Assembly: GCF_019890935.1 (NCBI RefSeq)
Contig: NZ_CP082333.1
Coordinates: forward strand, 1,514,001 to 1,578,000
Reading direction: 5' to 3'
Source: Exiguobacterium acetylicum
Lineage (GTDB): Bacteria; Bacillota; Bacilli; Exiguobacteriales; Exiguobacteriaceae
DNA: 64,000 nucleotides
The translations under genes and the position numbers were made by a program. This document shows positions 17,222 to 22,030 of the stretch, one piece after another. Every line of letters starts with the position of its first letter. Positions within the stretch are counted from its first letter, which is position 1. Under the pieces are notes generated by a model, which was not told the origin of the DNA, ran no database searches, and was given only the letters and a program-made list of their open reading frames with translations.

Positions 17222-17317
17222 CGGTTCCACATCCTTGAGTATGATACTTTCACGATAGCAGTTTGTTAAAGGATGTCAACGAGAGAGTCTCAAAATTTTA
17301 AAGATTCAGGTAAAGAC

Positions 17318-17345
17318 TTGCTCAAACAAATTTATTTGGTAAAAT
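17318..17345 (+). promoter_or_regulatory. Promoter for the DUF402-Nudix operon
   Basis: TTGCTC, 16 bases, TAAAAT, with TGG immediately before the -10 (extended -10). It lies 26 bases from the start codon at 17371. Confidence 0.6.
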
Positions 17346-17370
17346 TAGAGAGCTTTAGGGAAGGAGTGGG

Positions 17371-17910
17371 ATGAGAATGGAACTGAAGCATGTCACGATA
17401 GAAGCGCGAAAATTTGATGGACGTCCGCACTATTCATGGGACGGCTATGTCCTTGAACAGACGGAAAACTATCTGCTCGTCGCGAATACGCCCGGGCGGA
17501 CTCTTTTACATCATCGTCGCGAAGCGGTTTATACATACGACAATTATAGTCTCGAATTCTATCCGCTTGATGCGGATTTTACGGTCGGTCTCGATTTAGA
17601 GCGGACGGGAGAGGTGACGTACTACTGTAACATTTGCTTACCGCCGGTTCTTCAAGGAAATAGCTTATCGTTCATTGATCTGGATCTCGATCTCGTTCAT
17701 CGTGACGGCGTGTGGACGGTCGTCGACGAGGACGAATTTTTAGAGAACCAACAATTGTACGACTATCCGCCTGATGTGATTGAACGAGCCCGTGCATCGT
17801 TACTGAATCTACAAGAACGAATCGCGCAGCAACAGTTTCCGTTTGACGGCTTTTTGGATCCATTCATCCCGACCGTCCTGCAGATGAAGAGAAGGGGGAA
17901 TGACACATGA
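17371..17910 (+). CDS. DUF402 protein, probable nucleoside di/triphosphatase
   Basis: A 179-residue DUF402 protein. The family includes Staphylococcus nucleoside tri/diphosphatases that use a FomD-like fold. Seen here: YSWDGYVLEQTENYLLV, VGLDLERTGEVTYYCNICLPP, and the acidic pair LDLDLVHRDG and VVDEDEF, which would bind metal. AAGGAG lies four bases before ATG 17371 and ten before ATG 17377; either could be used. Its stop overlaps the Nudix start by four bases, pointing to a nucleotide-clearing pair. Confidence 0.85.
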   Translation: MRMELKHVTIEARKFDGRPHYSWDGYVLEQTENYLLVANTPGRTLLHHRREAVYTYDNYSLEFYPLDADFTVGLDLERTGEVTYYCNICLPPVLQGNSLSFIDLDLDLVHRDGVWTVVDEDEFLENQQLYDYPPDVIERARASLLNLQERIAQQQFPFDGFLDPFIPTVLQMKRRGNDT

Positions 17911-18392
17911 AGACGATTCGTTGCCACCGGGCATTTGGTGTCTATGGATTATTGATGAAGGAGGATGCCTTACTCGTCATCGACAAGAATGGTGGACCGT
18001 ATATCAATCGCTATGACTTACCAGGGGGAAGCCTCGAAGAAGGAGAGACGCTCGCTACGGCGATGCGCCGGGAATTCACGGAAGAGACAGGGCTCGAAGT
18101 GGCACTCGAACGACAGATCGGCGTCGCGGACTTCAAGCTTCCGTGGGATTGGCGCGAGTTCGACGAAGTCCATCACATCGCCGTCTTTTATCTCGTCCGA
18201 CAGACGGGTGGAACGCTGAGTATCCCCGAACAATTCGTCGGACAAGACTCACTCGGTGCGCGCTGGGTCAAGGCGAGTGACGTCTCGATTGATAACGCGT
18301 CTCCGCTCGTACTCGAAGCGTTTCGCTGGATCGAGGAACAGCAACTCGATCTCGAGGCACGACACTTTTCGAATTGGGACGTCTTAAAATGA
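17907..18392 (+). CDS. Nudix hydrolase
   Basis: A 161-residue Nudix enzyme. The full Nudix box starts GGSLEEGETLATAMRREFTE and continues with ETGLEV. An N-terminal HRAFGVYGLLMKEDALLVI strand and an RFDEVHHIAVFYLV-type strand follow the fold. The substrate cannot be read; relatives include pyrophosphohydrolases of damaged nucleotides and cofactors. It is translationally coupled (ATGA) to the DUF402 nucleotidase upstream. Confidence 0.92.
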   Translation: MKTIRCHRAFGVYGLLMKEDALLVIDKNGGPYINRYDLPGGSLEEGETLATAMRREFTEETGLEVALERQIGVADFKLPWDWREFDEVHHIAVFYLVRQTGGTLSIPEQFVGQDSLGARWVKASDVSIDNASPLVLEAFRWIEEQQLDLEARHFSNWDVLK

Positions 18393-18397
18393 ACAGG

Positions 18398-18428
18398 AGC
18401 GCTCTTCGTTAATGGAGAGCGCTTTTTT
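18398..18428 (+). terminator. Terminator of the DUF402-Nudix operon
   Basis: AGCGCTCT / AGAGCGCT is followed by TTTTTT. Confidence 0.9.
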
Positions 18429-18490
18429 ATGTCTGCAATGTCATAAAGACGAATCGTCAGGAGTGTTGGTCAAACCAAGCAGCATCATCT

Positions 18491-18522
18491 GATTGGTTCG
18501 CATGTATTTTTTTCGAACAATC
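18491..18522. repeat. Inverted repeat upstream of the lysis-type operon
   Basis: GATTGGTTCG (18491-18500) and CGAACAATC (18514-18522) pair with one bulged base around a T-rich spacer. A smaller TTGGT-CAA-ACCAA palindrome lies about 30 bases upstream. Position just before the first gene suggests an operator. The arms are in the opposite order to a LexA box. Confidence 0.45.
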
Positions 18523-18565
18523 CTCGACCTCTTCCTGTCATATTTCCTAGAAAGGAGGAATCACC

Positions 18566-19321
18566 ATGCAAGTCCCATATCTCCCGGTTCCCCATACGCT
18601 CTTAAGGAGCGGGACGGCATTTGCGTCCGTCCATGAAAAGATGATCTATCTGATCCTTGAAAGCTTCAGTGGTCAGGATGGTCAAGCATTCCCGTCCTAT
18701 CAGACGATCGCCGACGCTGTTCCGTGCAGTAAATCGACGGTTAAGTCATGTATCCAGTCCTTGATCGCAAGCGGTCGGATCGAGAAAGTCGAACGGTTCA
18801 CGAAACACGGAGGACAGACCTCGAATGCTTACCGTGTCCTGCCCCGTGTCGACACACCGTCCCCGTCGAGTCAGGAGGCGACTGCTCCCAAGGTTTCTGC
18901 TGCCTCCGAAGAAGAAGTCTTGAAGAATACGACTTTAAAAAAGGAGCTGGTGCAGCAGTACGAAACGAATCTCGGCAAGGCGACACCACGAATCGAGCAG
19001 GAATTGCTACAGCTGGCAACAGACCATCCGATCGAGCACATTCGGTATGCGATCGAAGAAGCGGCGCGAGCGAACAGTCGTCATTTTGGTTACATCGAGC
19101 AAGTCGTCAAGCGTCTTGCGACTGGATTACCAGTTGAACGGCGGAAACGAATAATCAAACGTTCAAGAAGAGACACTTCATTATTTCAATTACCGAATTG
19201 GATAGAACAAGAAAAAGCAGCGCAACGAGCGTATGAAGCACACCAGAAGAAGAAACAGAGCATACCTGACGACGCCGAAATTGCTGAACTATTACAAGCA
19301 CTGACAAGGGAGGGAGCCTGA
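18566..19321 (+). CDS. Phage-type HTH_36/DnaD-domain replication-initiation-like protein
   Basis: A 251-residue protein. Residues 20-95 form an HTH_36 winged helix (VHEKMIYLILESF, FPSYQTIADAVPCSKSTVKSC, HGGQTSNAYRVLP). A linker rich in Ser/Ala/Glu follows. Residues 130-190 match the DnaD/DnaB_2 fold (YETNLGKATPRIEQELLQLA ... HFGYIEQVVKRL). Such proteins are usually phage replication initiators that help load helicase. The C-terminus is strongly basic then acidic. Strong AAAGGAGG precedes ATG 18566. Its stop overlaps the endolysin start (TGATG). No replicase, integrase or structural gene is nearby. Confidence 0.85.
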   Translation: MQVPYLPVPHTLLRSGTAFASVHEKMIYLILESFSGQDGQAFPSYQTIADAVPCSKSTVKSCIQSLIASGRIEKVERFTKHGGQTSNAYRVLPRVDTPSPSSQEATAPKVSAASEEEVLKNTTLKKELVQQYETNLGKATPRIEQELLQLATDHPIEHIRYAIEEAARANSRHFGYIEQVVKRLATGLPVERRKRIIKRSRRDTSLFQLPNWIEQEKAAQRAYEAHQKKKQSIPDDAEIAELLQALTREGA

Positions 19322-19956
19322 TGCAACTGGAAGAATTACTCCGACGTGCCAATCAAAAACTATCCGTTCCTGGCATGCATCCGTCTGTCGTCGGGATCAC
19401 GCGTGACGTGATACGAGAGCTTTATCCGCATGGGATCAAGCTCGGTATAGCGCAAAGCTTTCGGAGCATCGCGGAACAGGATGCGTTGTATGCAAAAGGA
19501 CGGACGACGCCAGGACCCATCGTGACGCAAGCCCGCGGCGGACAATCAAACCATAACTTCGGTGTCGCAATCGACGTCTTTCTCTATCAGGATGGGGCGT
19601 TGTTCCTTTCTCCGCCAGATGCGCGACTCCGACGAATCGTTCGCGCGATGAAACGACGCGGAATGGACTGGGGAGGCGATTGGTCTCGTTTTCCAGACTA
19701 CCCACACTTTGAACTGTACGATCATGTCAGTCTAGCGCGCCATCACGTGCCAAAACAAGGTCACTATCTCCGGGAAAAAATCCAAGCACCGGAACTCGTC
19801 CGAGCCCTTGAAAAACGCTTGGGTCTTGTGGTGACAGGAATCTTTGATGCCCGATTGACGCACGCCGTTCGAACGTTCCAACAGACATGTCGTCTAGTCG
19901 CTGACGGAATCGTTGGTCCGCAAACATGGCGTCGTCTCTTTCCGGTGTCACCATGA
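19321..19956 (+). CDS. Endolysin: M15-type L-Ala-D-Glu peptidase with peptidoglycan-binding domain
   Basis: A 211-residue cell-wall hydrolase without signal peptide, as expected for a holin-dependent endolysin. The catalytic part resembles CwlK and phage A500-type peptidases: QSFRSIAEQDALYAKGR, then the zinc motif SNHNFGVAIDV (His and Asp), and DYPHFEL (catalytic and metal His). Residues 150-208 form a peptidoglycan-binding domain (VRALEKRLGLVVTGIFD ... FQQTCRLVADGIVGPQTW). It is coupled to the DnaD-like gene upstream (1-base overlap) and to the holin downstream (4-base overlap). Confidence 0.93.
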   Translation: MQLEELLRRANQKLSVPGMHPSVVGITRDVIRELYPHGIKLGIAQSFRSIAEQDALYAKGRTTPGPIVTQARGGQSNHNFGVAIDVFLYQDGALFLSPPDARLRRIVRAMKRRGMDWGGDWSRFPDYPHFELYDHVSLARHHVPKQGHYLREKIQAPELVRALEKRLGLVVTGIFDARLTHAVRTFQQTCRLVADGIVGPQTWRRLFPVSP

Positions 19957-20198
19957 TTCGATTTCAGGCGTGGATCCGTCTCTTGATTCCGCTCTATGTT
20001 TTTCTTGAGTTACTCTTACCGACGCTCGGTTTTACAGCATTGCCAGTGTCGGCAAGTGACGTCGAGCGATTCGTGACGGGTCTAGTCGGACTAGTTGGTC
20101 TACTCGTCGCTTGGTGGAAGAACAATGACGTGACTGAGCGGGCACTGAGACGAAGGCAGGCACAGGAACAGTTGGAAAACACATCCTTGACCGATTAA
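19953..20198 (+). CDS. SPP1-family holin
   Basis: An 81-residue holin of the phage SPP1 family. Two membrane segments (IRLLIPLYVFLELLLPTLGF and RFVTGLVGLVGLLVAWW) flank a short loop, LPVSASDVE. The family-typical WWKNNDVTERALRRRQA tail is basic and cytoplasmic. ATG at 19953 overlaps the endolysin stop. It would form membrane pores that release the endolysin to the wall. Gene order endolysin-then-holin is retained. No antiholin is visible. Confidence 0.9.
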   Translation: MIRFQAWIRLLIPLYVFLELLLPTLGFTALPVSASDVERFVTGLVGLVGLLVAWWKNNDVTERALRRRQAQEQLENTSLTD

Positions 20199-20253
20199 GA
20201 AAGCTGGAAGCGTTTGGAATGTGTCGGCAACGGGCATTATTTCATACAAACGA

Positions 20254-20281
20254 CTAACAGTTTGATTTCAAGACACCGATA
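20254..20281 (+). promoter_or_regulatory. Possible sigma-D-like promoter before a diguanylate cyclase
   Basis: TAAC (20254-20257), 16 bases, ACCGATAG (20274-20281), compared with the motility sigma consensus TAAA-N15-GCCGATAT (9 of 12 match). A similar element precedes the PAS chemoreceptor at 28876. Speculative. Confidence 0.3.
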
Positions 20282-20332
20282 GAAGGGATAGACTTTAGTC
20301 AATTAGAAAGAGAAAGAAAGGTCGGTCTTTTT

Positions 20333-21469
20333 GTGAAATGGTCAACGTTGCAGCGCTATTTGTTTTTGGCACTCTGTGCGCTATTGTTTACAAGCGTTTG
20401 GAGCTATCAAGCTTTCCTGAAAATCGAACGAGAGAATGCACGCATCTTAAACGAGGCGATTCCGATCTCGACGGAAGCAGCGGAGTTGTTTCCGGCGTTA
20501 CTAAATCTTGAACTGGTCGTTCGCAGTTACATCCTCTCACCGAACGAGGCGGATCTAGCCCAGTATGATCGGACGATTGATCGGCTTGATCAAACGGTCA
20601 AGCGACTCAATCAACTCGATGAGAATCATCCGATCATGCGAAAGCTCGTCCGAACGGAAGCGATTCCCCGGATCGAGACAGCTATCCGATTTTATGATGC
20701 CCAACTGGCACTCGTTCGAAACGGGGATCAAGCAGCCGCTGAGGCAAAGCGTTATCAAGGAATGCAATATATCGAGACATTTCGTCCGATCGATGCCCGT
20801 CTACGGACGGACGTCAACCGAATCATCGCCGAAGCAACGAATCGTTCCGAGCAAGCATCGAGTGCTGCGAAATGGGTCATCGTCGTTGTCGCAAGCATTG
20901 CCGTTCTTGTCTTAATTGCCTTCATCCAGACGTTTCGGATGGAACGCAGTAAACAAGCCTTGATTCATCGTTCGCTTCACGACGCCTTGACCGGCATCCC
21001 GAATCGACGGGCGTTCGATGAACGATTGGAGCAACTTCTCGAAGAAGCCAAACAACACCAGACACCACTCTCCCTGATTTTGATCGATGTCGATGCCTTT
21101 AAGTCGTATAATGATACGTATGGTCATTTAAAAGGGGATGAATGTTTAAAAGAAGTCGCCCGCGTCTTGAAGCGTCAAGCACGGCATGGACAAGTCGCAC
21201 GGTACGGTGGAGAGGAATTCACAGTCTTGTTGCCGCGTGGAGCAGAAGAAACCCGGCGCATTGCAGAACGCATCCGACAGGACATTCTCGATTTGAATAT
21301 CGTACATGAACGCTATGAACCACTTTGCCGGGTCAGTGTCAGTCTTGGCTTGACGTCGCTTGTACCCGGAGCAGAAACGACAGAAAAAGAGGTGATCGAC
21401 CAAGCCGATCAAGCGTTATATCGGGCGAAAGAGAATGGTCGGAACCAAATCGGTGACATGGCAGGGTAA
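20333..21469 (+). CDS. Diguanylate cyclase with extracytoplasmic four-helix sensor
   Basis: A 378-residue membrane protein. A first helix (residues 8-24) and a second (about 183-200) bracket a periplasm-equivalent helical domain of CHASE3/four-helix-bundle type (ESFRPIDARLRTDVNRIIAEA-like heptads). The GGDEF domain follows: LHDALTGIPNRRAF, DVDAFKSYNDTYGHLKGD, and GGEEF near residue 292. The RxxD I-site is missing (ARHG at that position). The start is GTG at 20333; the upstream ribosome-binding site AGAAAGG is modest and about 12 bases away. It is monocistronic, with no clear terminator before the next gene 24 bases downstream. Confidence 0.9.
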   Translation: MKWSTLQRYLFLALCALLFTSVWSYQAFLKIERENARILNEAIPISTEAAELFPALLNLELVVRSYILSPNEADLAQYDRTIDRLDQTVKRLNQLDENHPIMRKLVRTEAIPRIETAIRFYDAQLALVRNGDQAAAEAKRYQGMQYIETFRPIDARLRTDVNRIIAEATNRSEQASSAAKWVIVVVASIAVLVLIAFIQTFRMERSKQALIHRSLHDALTGIPNRRAFDERLEQLLEEAKQHQTPLSLILIDVDAFKSYNDTYGHLKGDECLKEVARVLKRQARHGQVARYGGEEFTVLLPRGAEETRRIAERIRQDILDLNIVHERYEPLCRVSVSLGLTSLVPGAETTEKEVIDQADQALYRAKENGRNQIGDMAG

Positions 21470-21493
21470 TGCATAATCAGATGGGAATGAAGA

Positions 21494-22030
21494 ATGCTGA
21501 TACAGGTAGGATTTGTTTTTGAAAAAACGCAAGATATGGAACACGCTGCTCGAACGGTCTTGGATGCATTTCATTCAGACATAAGATGTCTCGGATACAG
21601 TTACGCGACGGATATTGATGGATCACACTGGGGCGAGGAAAAGGGTCTTCCGAAAGACTGGCGTCCATTACTGAATCATCATTACGGGAATGCCTCGCTC
21701 GTCTTCTTAGCGTATCATGGTTTAATAACAGTACCGGTTCGAATGACGATTGAAAAAGAGCCTGACTGTTTTGGTTTTCGATTCGGTTTTCAAGAAGAGA
21801 AGTTAATTCCGTTGACGACCGACCAGCAAGAATTGATGTTCATGGAGGACATGCAAAGGATTGCTGACAGGTCAAGCGCTCTGTATGCCTTTTGTGATTT
21901 TGATGCGGAAATCGAGCATGCGATAACAGAACGGGAACACATCAATCGAGAATATGCGATCGTCTACTGGTCCAAGGAGCAAACTTATTTAAAGAATGCA
22001 TGGAAAATCGATGGTTTTACAGACCGATGA
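21494..22030 (+). CDS. Uncharacterised 178-residue protein
   Basis: Family not recognised. The protein is soluble, acidic and rich in aromatic residues, beginning MLIQVGFVFEKTQDMEH. A central segment, HYGNASLVFLAYHGLITVPV, looks like a buried beta-strand pair, and the C-terminus is helical. The start ATG at 21494 has GGGAATGAAGA upstream. The size and style are like small immunity-type proteins, but there is no adjacent toxin. It ends at a shared bidirectional terminator. Confidence 0.72.
   Translation: MLIQVGFVFEKTQDMEHAARTVLDAFHSDIRCLGYSYATDIDGSHWGEEKGLPKDWRPLLNHHYGNASLVFLAYHGLITVPVRMTIEKEPDCFGFRFGFQEEKLIPLTTDQQELMFMEDMQRIADRSSALYAFCDFDAEIEHAITEREHINREYAIVYWSKEQTYLKNAWKIDGFTDR

Follow-up and report, generated by a model that had tools for sequence, protein, structure and literature searches.

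A phage-type lysis operon kept at one chromosomal site in Exiguobacterium and preceded by an element shared with other host genes

The window analysed here, G000:C1:1514001-1578000, is a stretch of 64,000 nucleotides from Exiguobacterium acetylicum, and within it three phage-type genes on the forward strand, each overlapping the next, make up a short operon. The features on which the argument rests, in window positions, are as follows; clades A and B are the two groups of Exiguobacterium genomes described further below.

18510 to 18540, forward strand: promoter-like bipartite element, TTTTCGAACAA-N13-CCTGTCA, with CGAACAA at 18514-18520 and CCTGTCA at 18534-18540
18552 to 18559, forward strand: ribosome-binding site AAGGAGGA of the DnaD-like gene, seen in the sequence and kept in the upstream alignment of clade A
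18566 to 19321, forward strand: gene for a DnaD-like protein of 251 amino acids, with an HTH_36 winged helix-turn-helix and a DnaB_2/DnaD domain (Pfam, PHROGs, NCBIfam and predicted fold)
18866 to 18970, no strand assigned: strong synonymous constraint over codons 101-135 of that gene, in the inter-domain linker (resampling per clade, both clades)
19321 to 19956, forward strand: endolysin gene, 211 amino acids, M15 peptidase and PG_binding_1 (Pfam, PHROGs)
19953 to 20198, forward strand: SPP1-type holin gene, 81 amino acids, start ATG at 19953 (Pfam, PHROGs)
20333 to 21469, forward strand: CHASE3-GGDEF diguanylate cyclase gene, a conserved neighbour outside the operon as counted here

How firmly can the three genes be assigned to their families? 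In Pfam the DnaD-like protein matches HTH_36 (2.1e-12) and DnaB_2 (1.5e-5), with DnaD_N staying below its curated cut-off, and in NCBIfam it scores just above the cut-off of DnaD_dom. The endolysin matches Peptidase_M15_4 (3e-16), PG_binding_1 and VanY, the holin matches Holin_SPP1 (5.5e-13), and PHROGs names the same three genes a DnaD-like helicase loader, an endolysin and a holin. A structure model of the DnaD-like protein, built with 13 of 18 sequences, shows a winged helix-turn-helix and a helical DnaD-type part (pLDDT 71, pTM 0.34), and the single PDB match of this moderate-confidence model at E≤0.001 is the DnaD chain 9a5c_B, which is part of an integrative model. The winged helix-turn-helix and the DnaB_2/DnaD domain are thus combined in one protein, as in DnaD-like replication initiators, and its role in replication or regulation is putative. 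Likewise, holin and endolysin genes are adjacent and both intact, as in a phage lysis cassette, and their products are presumed to act together as the lytic agent. In the window the DnaD-like gene overlaps the endolysin gene by 1 nt (TGATG), and the endolysin gene overlaps the holin gene by 4 nt (ATGA). The 4-nt overlap is found in all 18 orthologous loci, whereas the 1-nt overlap is limited to the nine genomes of clade A, clade B having gaps of 13-21 nt there. An alternative start of the holin, ATG at 19926, would lengthen it to 90 amino acids. By reading, the motifs SNHNFGVA and PHF of the endolysin and AWWKNN of the holin are present in 18/18. Genome G000 has one Holin_SPP1 match, and two M15 relatives of the endolysin elsewhere, with 49% and 41% identity. 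A free-standing protein of M15 plus PG_binding-like make-up (L109, 9723-10373; 216 amino acids, 49% identical to the endolysin) is encoded next to ribosomal protein genes, as far as can be read, and relatives of about 50% exist in most genomes of the genus.

Upstream of the operon are genes for DUF402 and NUDIX proteins, and downstream the cyclase is followed by an Imm64-family protein, two genes without Pfam match, a beta-eliminating-lyase-type enzyme, a MerR regulator and a short-chain dehydrogenase; all the neighbours scanned with Pfam are cellular. Neither Pfam on 13 neighbouring proteins nor reading of 53 translated ORFs of at least 170 amino acids brought out another phage gene in the window, and by reading it holds no integrase and no structural genes, which does not fit a prophage or its remnant. 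Direct repeats at least 14 nt long are absent within 17850-20400. The preliminary description had reported an HTH/DnaD-like gene, an endolysin gene and an SPP1 holin gene, overlapping by 1 and 4 nt and intact in frame, in a region free of other phage genes; each of these points is borne out at the coordinates listed above, the last within the reach of the Pfam scan and the reading, and the frames are intact not only in the window but in 18/18 copies. It had also linked an upstream inverted repeat with the module, and this link has to be given up. The repeat (18395-18426) follows the NUDIX gene, to which it belongs as a terminator-like hairpin, and among the nine clade-A genomes it is found only in G000 and G017, the other seven having a reverse-strand gene there; as an operator or any other part of the module it is ruled out.

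Several further observations on the surroundings may be added. The Imm64-family (immunity protein) gene, at 21494-22030 of the window, lies directly 3' of the cyclase gene and is found, by clustering, in 5/9 genomes of clade A and in none of clade B. Upstream of the cyclase there is a sequence resembling the sigma-D promoter consensus, reading ACTGATA in G010, G011 and G017 and ACCGATA in the other clade-A genomes; the cyclase may also be co-transcribed with the lysis operon. On the chromosome the operon is on the terminus side (G000:C1:1532566 and G004:C1:1380479), that is, 48% and 45% along contigs that both begin with a gene reading as dnaA, and the GC skew goes negative about 105-150 kb (G000) and 130-190 kb (G004) beyond it; a search for a dif-like terminus motif gave no match.

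How widely is the operon distributed? The three genes stand together with open frames in 18 of the 19 genomes of the genus, all beside the same diguanylate cyclase gene, and since they are intact in so many genomes the operon is more than a chance assembly. (In G003, G012, G014 and G007 they are partly masked by other ORFs or unclustered in the ORF map, and were located separately.) These genomes fall into two clades of nine. In clade A the DnaD-like protein is 83-93% identical to the copy of the window, the window's own being excluded, and in clade B the identities to the window are 42-50% for the DnaD-like protein, depending on the aligner, 52-59% for the endolysin and 39-50% for the holin, so that overall the proteins of the operon share about 39-59% between clades. 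On the 3' side the cyclase gene is common to both clades, as are nearly all the genes that follow, while the 5' side differs. G005 is the only genome of the genus without the three genes: its DnaD-like match spans 49 residues of another protein, and a search for the endolysin finds only a distant M15 relative. Its cyclase and lyase-type genes lie about 44 kb apart among other neighbours, and on the cyclase tree it branches outside the 18 with support of 0.993, its position on the tree of the lyase-type gene being unresolved. Hence either the branch leading to clades A and B gained the operon, or G005 lost it. In 19 genomes of the sister genus, searches with the DnaD-like protein gave only weak partial matches, most of them to the C-terminal 50-60 residues of a protein of about 470 amino acids, and Holin_SPP1 was found in one of the 19. 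Among named genomes, relatives of the DnaD-like gene were seen at nine loci, all of Exiguobacterium (including E. sibiricum 255-15, E. antarcticum, E. undae and E. indicum), in a scan with two peptide patterns that reaches close relatives only and does not by itself prove restriction to the genus.

Selection on these genes was estimated as dN/dS by the Nei-Gojobori method, taking the median over pairs with dS between 0 and 1.5. In clade A the medians are 0.135 for the DnaD-like gene, 0.079 for the endolysin, 0.077 for the holin and 0.051 for the cyclase (36 pairs; for the holin, one pair with dS 0 is left out), and in clade B they are 0.209 (29 of 36 pairs), 0.102 (22), 0.208 (19) and 0.058 (13), respectively. 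The highest single values are 0.41, for the endolysin in clade A, and 0.37, for the DnaD-like gene in clade B. All three genes of the operon are therefore under purifying selection, less strongly than the cyclase. When a tree of the three genes is compared with one of the flanking cyclase and dehydrogenase, for the 17 genomes that have the flanking dehydrogenase (G016 does not), 9 of 14 splits are common, and the five conflicting splits in each tree have support of at most 0.869. This agreement is consistent with vertical descent, and exchange within clades is compatible with it as well.

What, then, controls these genes? In alignments of the upstream DNA one bipartite site is conserved in both clades, shortly 5' of the ribosome-binding site. 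Its core, CGAACAA-N14-CTGTYA, is exact before the operon in 18/18 copies and occurs 84 times in the 19 genomes, against 8 occurrences of the reversed pattern; the longer TTTYCGAACAA-N13-CCTGTYA, with up to two mismatches, occurs 98 times against 17. Four gene groups carry the site in front of genes, in intergenic or gene-end DNA, and account for 59/84 exact and 65/98 relaxed sites; sites were assigned to groups by their similarity, the downstream genes having been read in 7, 7 and 3 genomes for the second, third and fourth group. The first group is the lysis operon, with the long pattern in 18/18 (no mismatch in 12, one in 5, two in 1). The second is an operon encoding DUF1659, DUF2922 and a protein of 297-299 amino acids, with the long pattern in 19/19; G005, which lacks the lysis genes, has it with two mismatches before its DUF1659 operon. 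The third is the gene of a protein of about 136 amino acids, p136 (18/19), and the fourth that of a protein of 45-55 amino acids next to genes that read as conjugation genes (10/19). The core site before the DUF1659-DUF2922 and p136 genes is present in both clades. Pfam supports the assignments of DUF1659 and DUF2922; the 297-aa, p136, 55-aa and 41-aa proteins have no match above cut-off in Pfam, nor p136 in NCBIfam, and the confidence of the predicted structure of p136 is too low for use. The DUF1659-DUF2922 operon, noted at L142, L151, L154, L174, L178 and L101, is kept throughout the genus including G005, and p136 genes under the shared element were noted at L144, L149, L152, L157, L158, L160 and L179.

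The sites outside these groups count against a regulon. Exact sites of this kind number 25 of 84 (9 of L143 type, 9 of L145 type and 7 single), those of the L143 and L145 types being found in clade A only and, by reading, inside or antisense to genes. Relaxed ones number 33 of 98: 14 others and 19 in one coding sequence, which reads as aconitase (read in L173 and L177) and contains one site per genome in 19/19. The sites at L147, L148 and L175 were read and placed in none of the four groups. Because the site within aconitase recurs in every genome, recurrence alone is no proof of a regulon, and the argument is based on exact cores, on placement before start codons and on spacers that diverge while the cores persist. 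At p136, moreover, the site overlaps the 3' end of the preceding gene or comes shortly after it, and a terminator-like hairpin stands between site and gene (G000 and G009, by reading); such a hairpin is beyond what a plain promoter explains and counts against one. Still, the site is asymmetric with fixed spacing, so that a sigma-type promoter is the simplest reading; it is probably the promoter for an alternative sigma factor, and possibly the target of another DNA-binding protein. A bipartite promoter-like site shared by several operons, here before four gene groups, is what an alternative-sigma regulon should display. That the element is a shared host element is well supported by these patterns, and since it is common to the lysis operon, the DUF1659-DUF2922 operon and two other small genes, it suggests a small host regulon.

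Which factor might recognize the element? G000 has ten sigma-region-2 genes, and upstream of none of the ten is there a convincing copy of the site, which speaks against an autoregulated sigma gene. One candidate is a sigma-like protein of 144 amino acids, well conserved in the family in that it is found in 38/38 genomes, for which reason its distribution does not track the operon; its gene (L170, G000:C1:2767891-2768322) is followed by one of tyrosine-recombinase type. Leads toward the regulator may come from what is reported for other bacteria: in Staphylococcus aureus, SigS directly activates sroAB and SroA affects sigS mRNA (2026 preprint, PMC13192611), expression of S. aureus sigS goes up with DNA-damaging agents (PMC4265319), and in Bacillus subtilis SigO-RsoA drives yvrJ (review, PMC8103513). 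Against the SroA model the DUF1659 protein scores 17.4 bits where the cut-off is 80 (E 0.0032), so that its link with SroA is weak, and a literature search found no work treating DUF1659 together with DUF2922.

All three genes come from phage families, and a phage source of the operon is likely. In the phage collection the DnaD-like protein finds 11 records, none matching more than 45% of its length, the endolysin finds 151 records, all below 60% identity, and the holin finds none; the DnaD-like protein also finds 2 plasmid records over 28%, while viral contigs gave no relative of it within the sensitivity of the scan. The donor phage was not found among the phage, plasmid and viral-contig collections searched, and prophage-like loci of the genus itself hold nearer relatives of the lysis pair. 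Literature searches on Exiguobacterium endolysins and on domesticated DnaD-endolysin-holin modules, judged by the titles listed, gave no description of the module. The families are known; what is new is their joint fixation in a genus under a shared host element, and the constrained stretch in the DnaD-like gene.

Taken together, we consider it about 65% probable that an ancestor of Exiguobacterium captured a phage lysis operon and that this became part of a host regulon serving regulated lysis or release. With intact genes at one site, purifying selection and the shared element, it seems to be a device for lysis or release under host control, not the relic of a phage. The preliminary description had put forward two possibilities, domestication as a regulated module and a satellite remnant. 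Its first proposal gains from the comparison of relatives and from dN/dS (medians 0.08-0.21 for the three genes), besides the shared element, and domestication is well supported; the second loses, as the signs that would mark a remnant, decaying frames and direct repeats (of 14 nt or more, within 17850-20400), were looked for and are absent (0/18 for the frames). Its suggestion that the DnaD-like protein became the regulator fares less well, for the upstream element, which recurs before other genes, suggests instead that a host factor is in control. How might such a device work? The ancestor of the two clades would have captured an operon of a replication-initiator-type DnaD protein, an endolysin and a holin, which would then have been inherited vertically at one chromosomal site. 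Under stress an alternative sigma factor with a role like that of SigS or SigO might switch it on, probably in few cells. The holin would open the membrane and the endolysin, for which no signal peptide is evident, would cut the wall; the cell would then lyse and release DNA or proteins, while the DnaD-like protein, keeping its DNA-binding fold, may set the timing of the operon or act on DNA. The likeliest output seems to be regulated lysis of some cells, with non-lytic release as its main rival.

In that rival, unlikely in our estimate, the operon is a device like type 10 secretion, in which holin and endolysin let host cargo out with limited wall cutting or none and the cell survives. The make-up of holin plus peptidoglycan hydrolase without phage particles is that of such systems, on which there are reviews and examples (PMC9527704, PMC10847048), and a gene for a large surface-type protein lies 3' of the p136 gene in G000, G004, G010 and G018, a point of position alone. 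However, the operon contains no cargo gene, none is conserved next to it, and a DnaD-like gene is ill-suited to secretion.

Can the DnaD-like gene itself tell us more? Over about 105 nt (18866-18970) synonymous differences are far below expectation in both clades (18 genomes). The expectation is drawn from the four genes only, and codons of clade B are numbered as in G003. Among all 30-codon windows of these genes the lowest lies at codons 101-130 in clade A (ratio 0.39, 163 windows) and at codons 111-140 in clade B (ratio 0.15, 167 windows), and codons 106-135 have p of 1.5e-4 (A) and 5e-5 (B) in 20,000 resamplings. Codons 1-15 are low too, as are codons 16-90 to a slight degree (p 0.049 and 0.021). 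In genes of phage initiators the origin is often located in the part coding for the linker. None of the short repeats of the region falls within the constrained stretch. An RNA structure was considered and found no support: no pair in a fold of eight clade-A sequences is changed on both sides, and Rfam has no match within 17300-21600. A programmed frameshift at the TTTAAAA/A-run of the gene is not supported either: the run is in register in 16/18 genomes, being absent from G012 and out of register in G003, and the -1/+1 extensions vary from 8 to 71 codons. It is conceivable, if rather improbable, that a host factor would switch on the DnaD-like initiator to act at an origin-like element in its own gene, the constrained stretch, before holin and endolysin lyse the cell, so that a stressed cell would amplify its DNA and spill it as a public good or for transformation.

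Similarly improbable is that the operon is the lysis part of a dispersed phage-derived particle, a gene transfer agent or tailocin, with structural genes elsewhere in the genome. Dispersed particle systems can keep lysis genes at separate loci, but among the genes read in the four site-sharing groups no phage structural gene was seen. The operon could also be a defence device, with a phage-like DnaD protein that detects phage replication or interferes with it and lysis genes by which infected cells are killed. This would explain why a host keeps phage-type genes intact, but it is very improbable: no defence genes are among the neighbours scanned, the Imm64-family gene is downstream in part of clade A only, and defence genes are not usually fixed at a single site across a genus. 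A decaying prophage remnant or minimal satellite, suggested by the phage families of all three genes and by the prophage lysis pairs of the genus, is hardly credible, and a recent prophage remnant is ruled out, with 18/18 copies intact at one site in two diverged clades, low dN/dS, a conserved upstream element, no direct repeat of at least 14 nt within 17850-20400 and, as far as the scan was sensitive, no relatives in viral contigs.

If capture and host control of the lysis operon are true, a common environmental genus carries a fixed, host-wired lysis operon without a phage, which has its upstream element in common with the operon for DUF1659 and DUF2922; the S. aureus counterpart of the latter responds to SigS, a stress sigma factor. 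Such a case would offer a simple system to study programmed bacterial lysis: which cells lyse, when, and who benefits? It would also link small proteins of an unexplained class with a physical output and give a case of a phage replication protein retained for use after the phage is gone.

How does the operon compare with known systems? The lysis pairs of Exiguobacterium prophages (L106 in G007, L107 in G003, L105 in G009) have the same order, with the lysin gene ahead of the holin gene. Their holin belongs to the same family in L106, L107 and G009, the endolysin is of M15 type in L106 and L105 (64% identity over residues 5-136 in G009), and L107 has the 4-nt overlap too. In contrast, L106 and L107 lie beside phage tail genes, L107 has an amidase in place of the M15 lysin, and the ORF maps show no adjacent DnaD-like gene in these pairs. 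With phage DnaD-like replication initiators (phrog_186 and relatives) the operon protein shares the winged helix-turn-helix and DnaD-type domain, but the best phage matches (11 records) cover at most 45% of it and no replication genes stand beside it. As for S. aureus SigS and sroAB, the passages seen of the description mention no lysis operon (PMC13192611), while the likeness is that a DUF1659-type small protein pair is the target of one alternative sigma factor. Finally, type 10 secretion differs in that the present operon includes a DnaD-like gene and has no cargo gene beside its three genes; in the available parts of its descriptions, one case has lysis of specialised cells, and the likeness lies in the use by a host of a phage-type holin and a wall hydrolase without particles (PMC10847048, PMC9527704).
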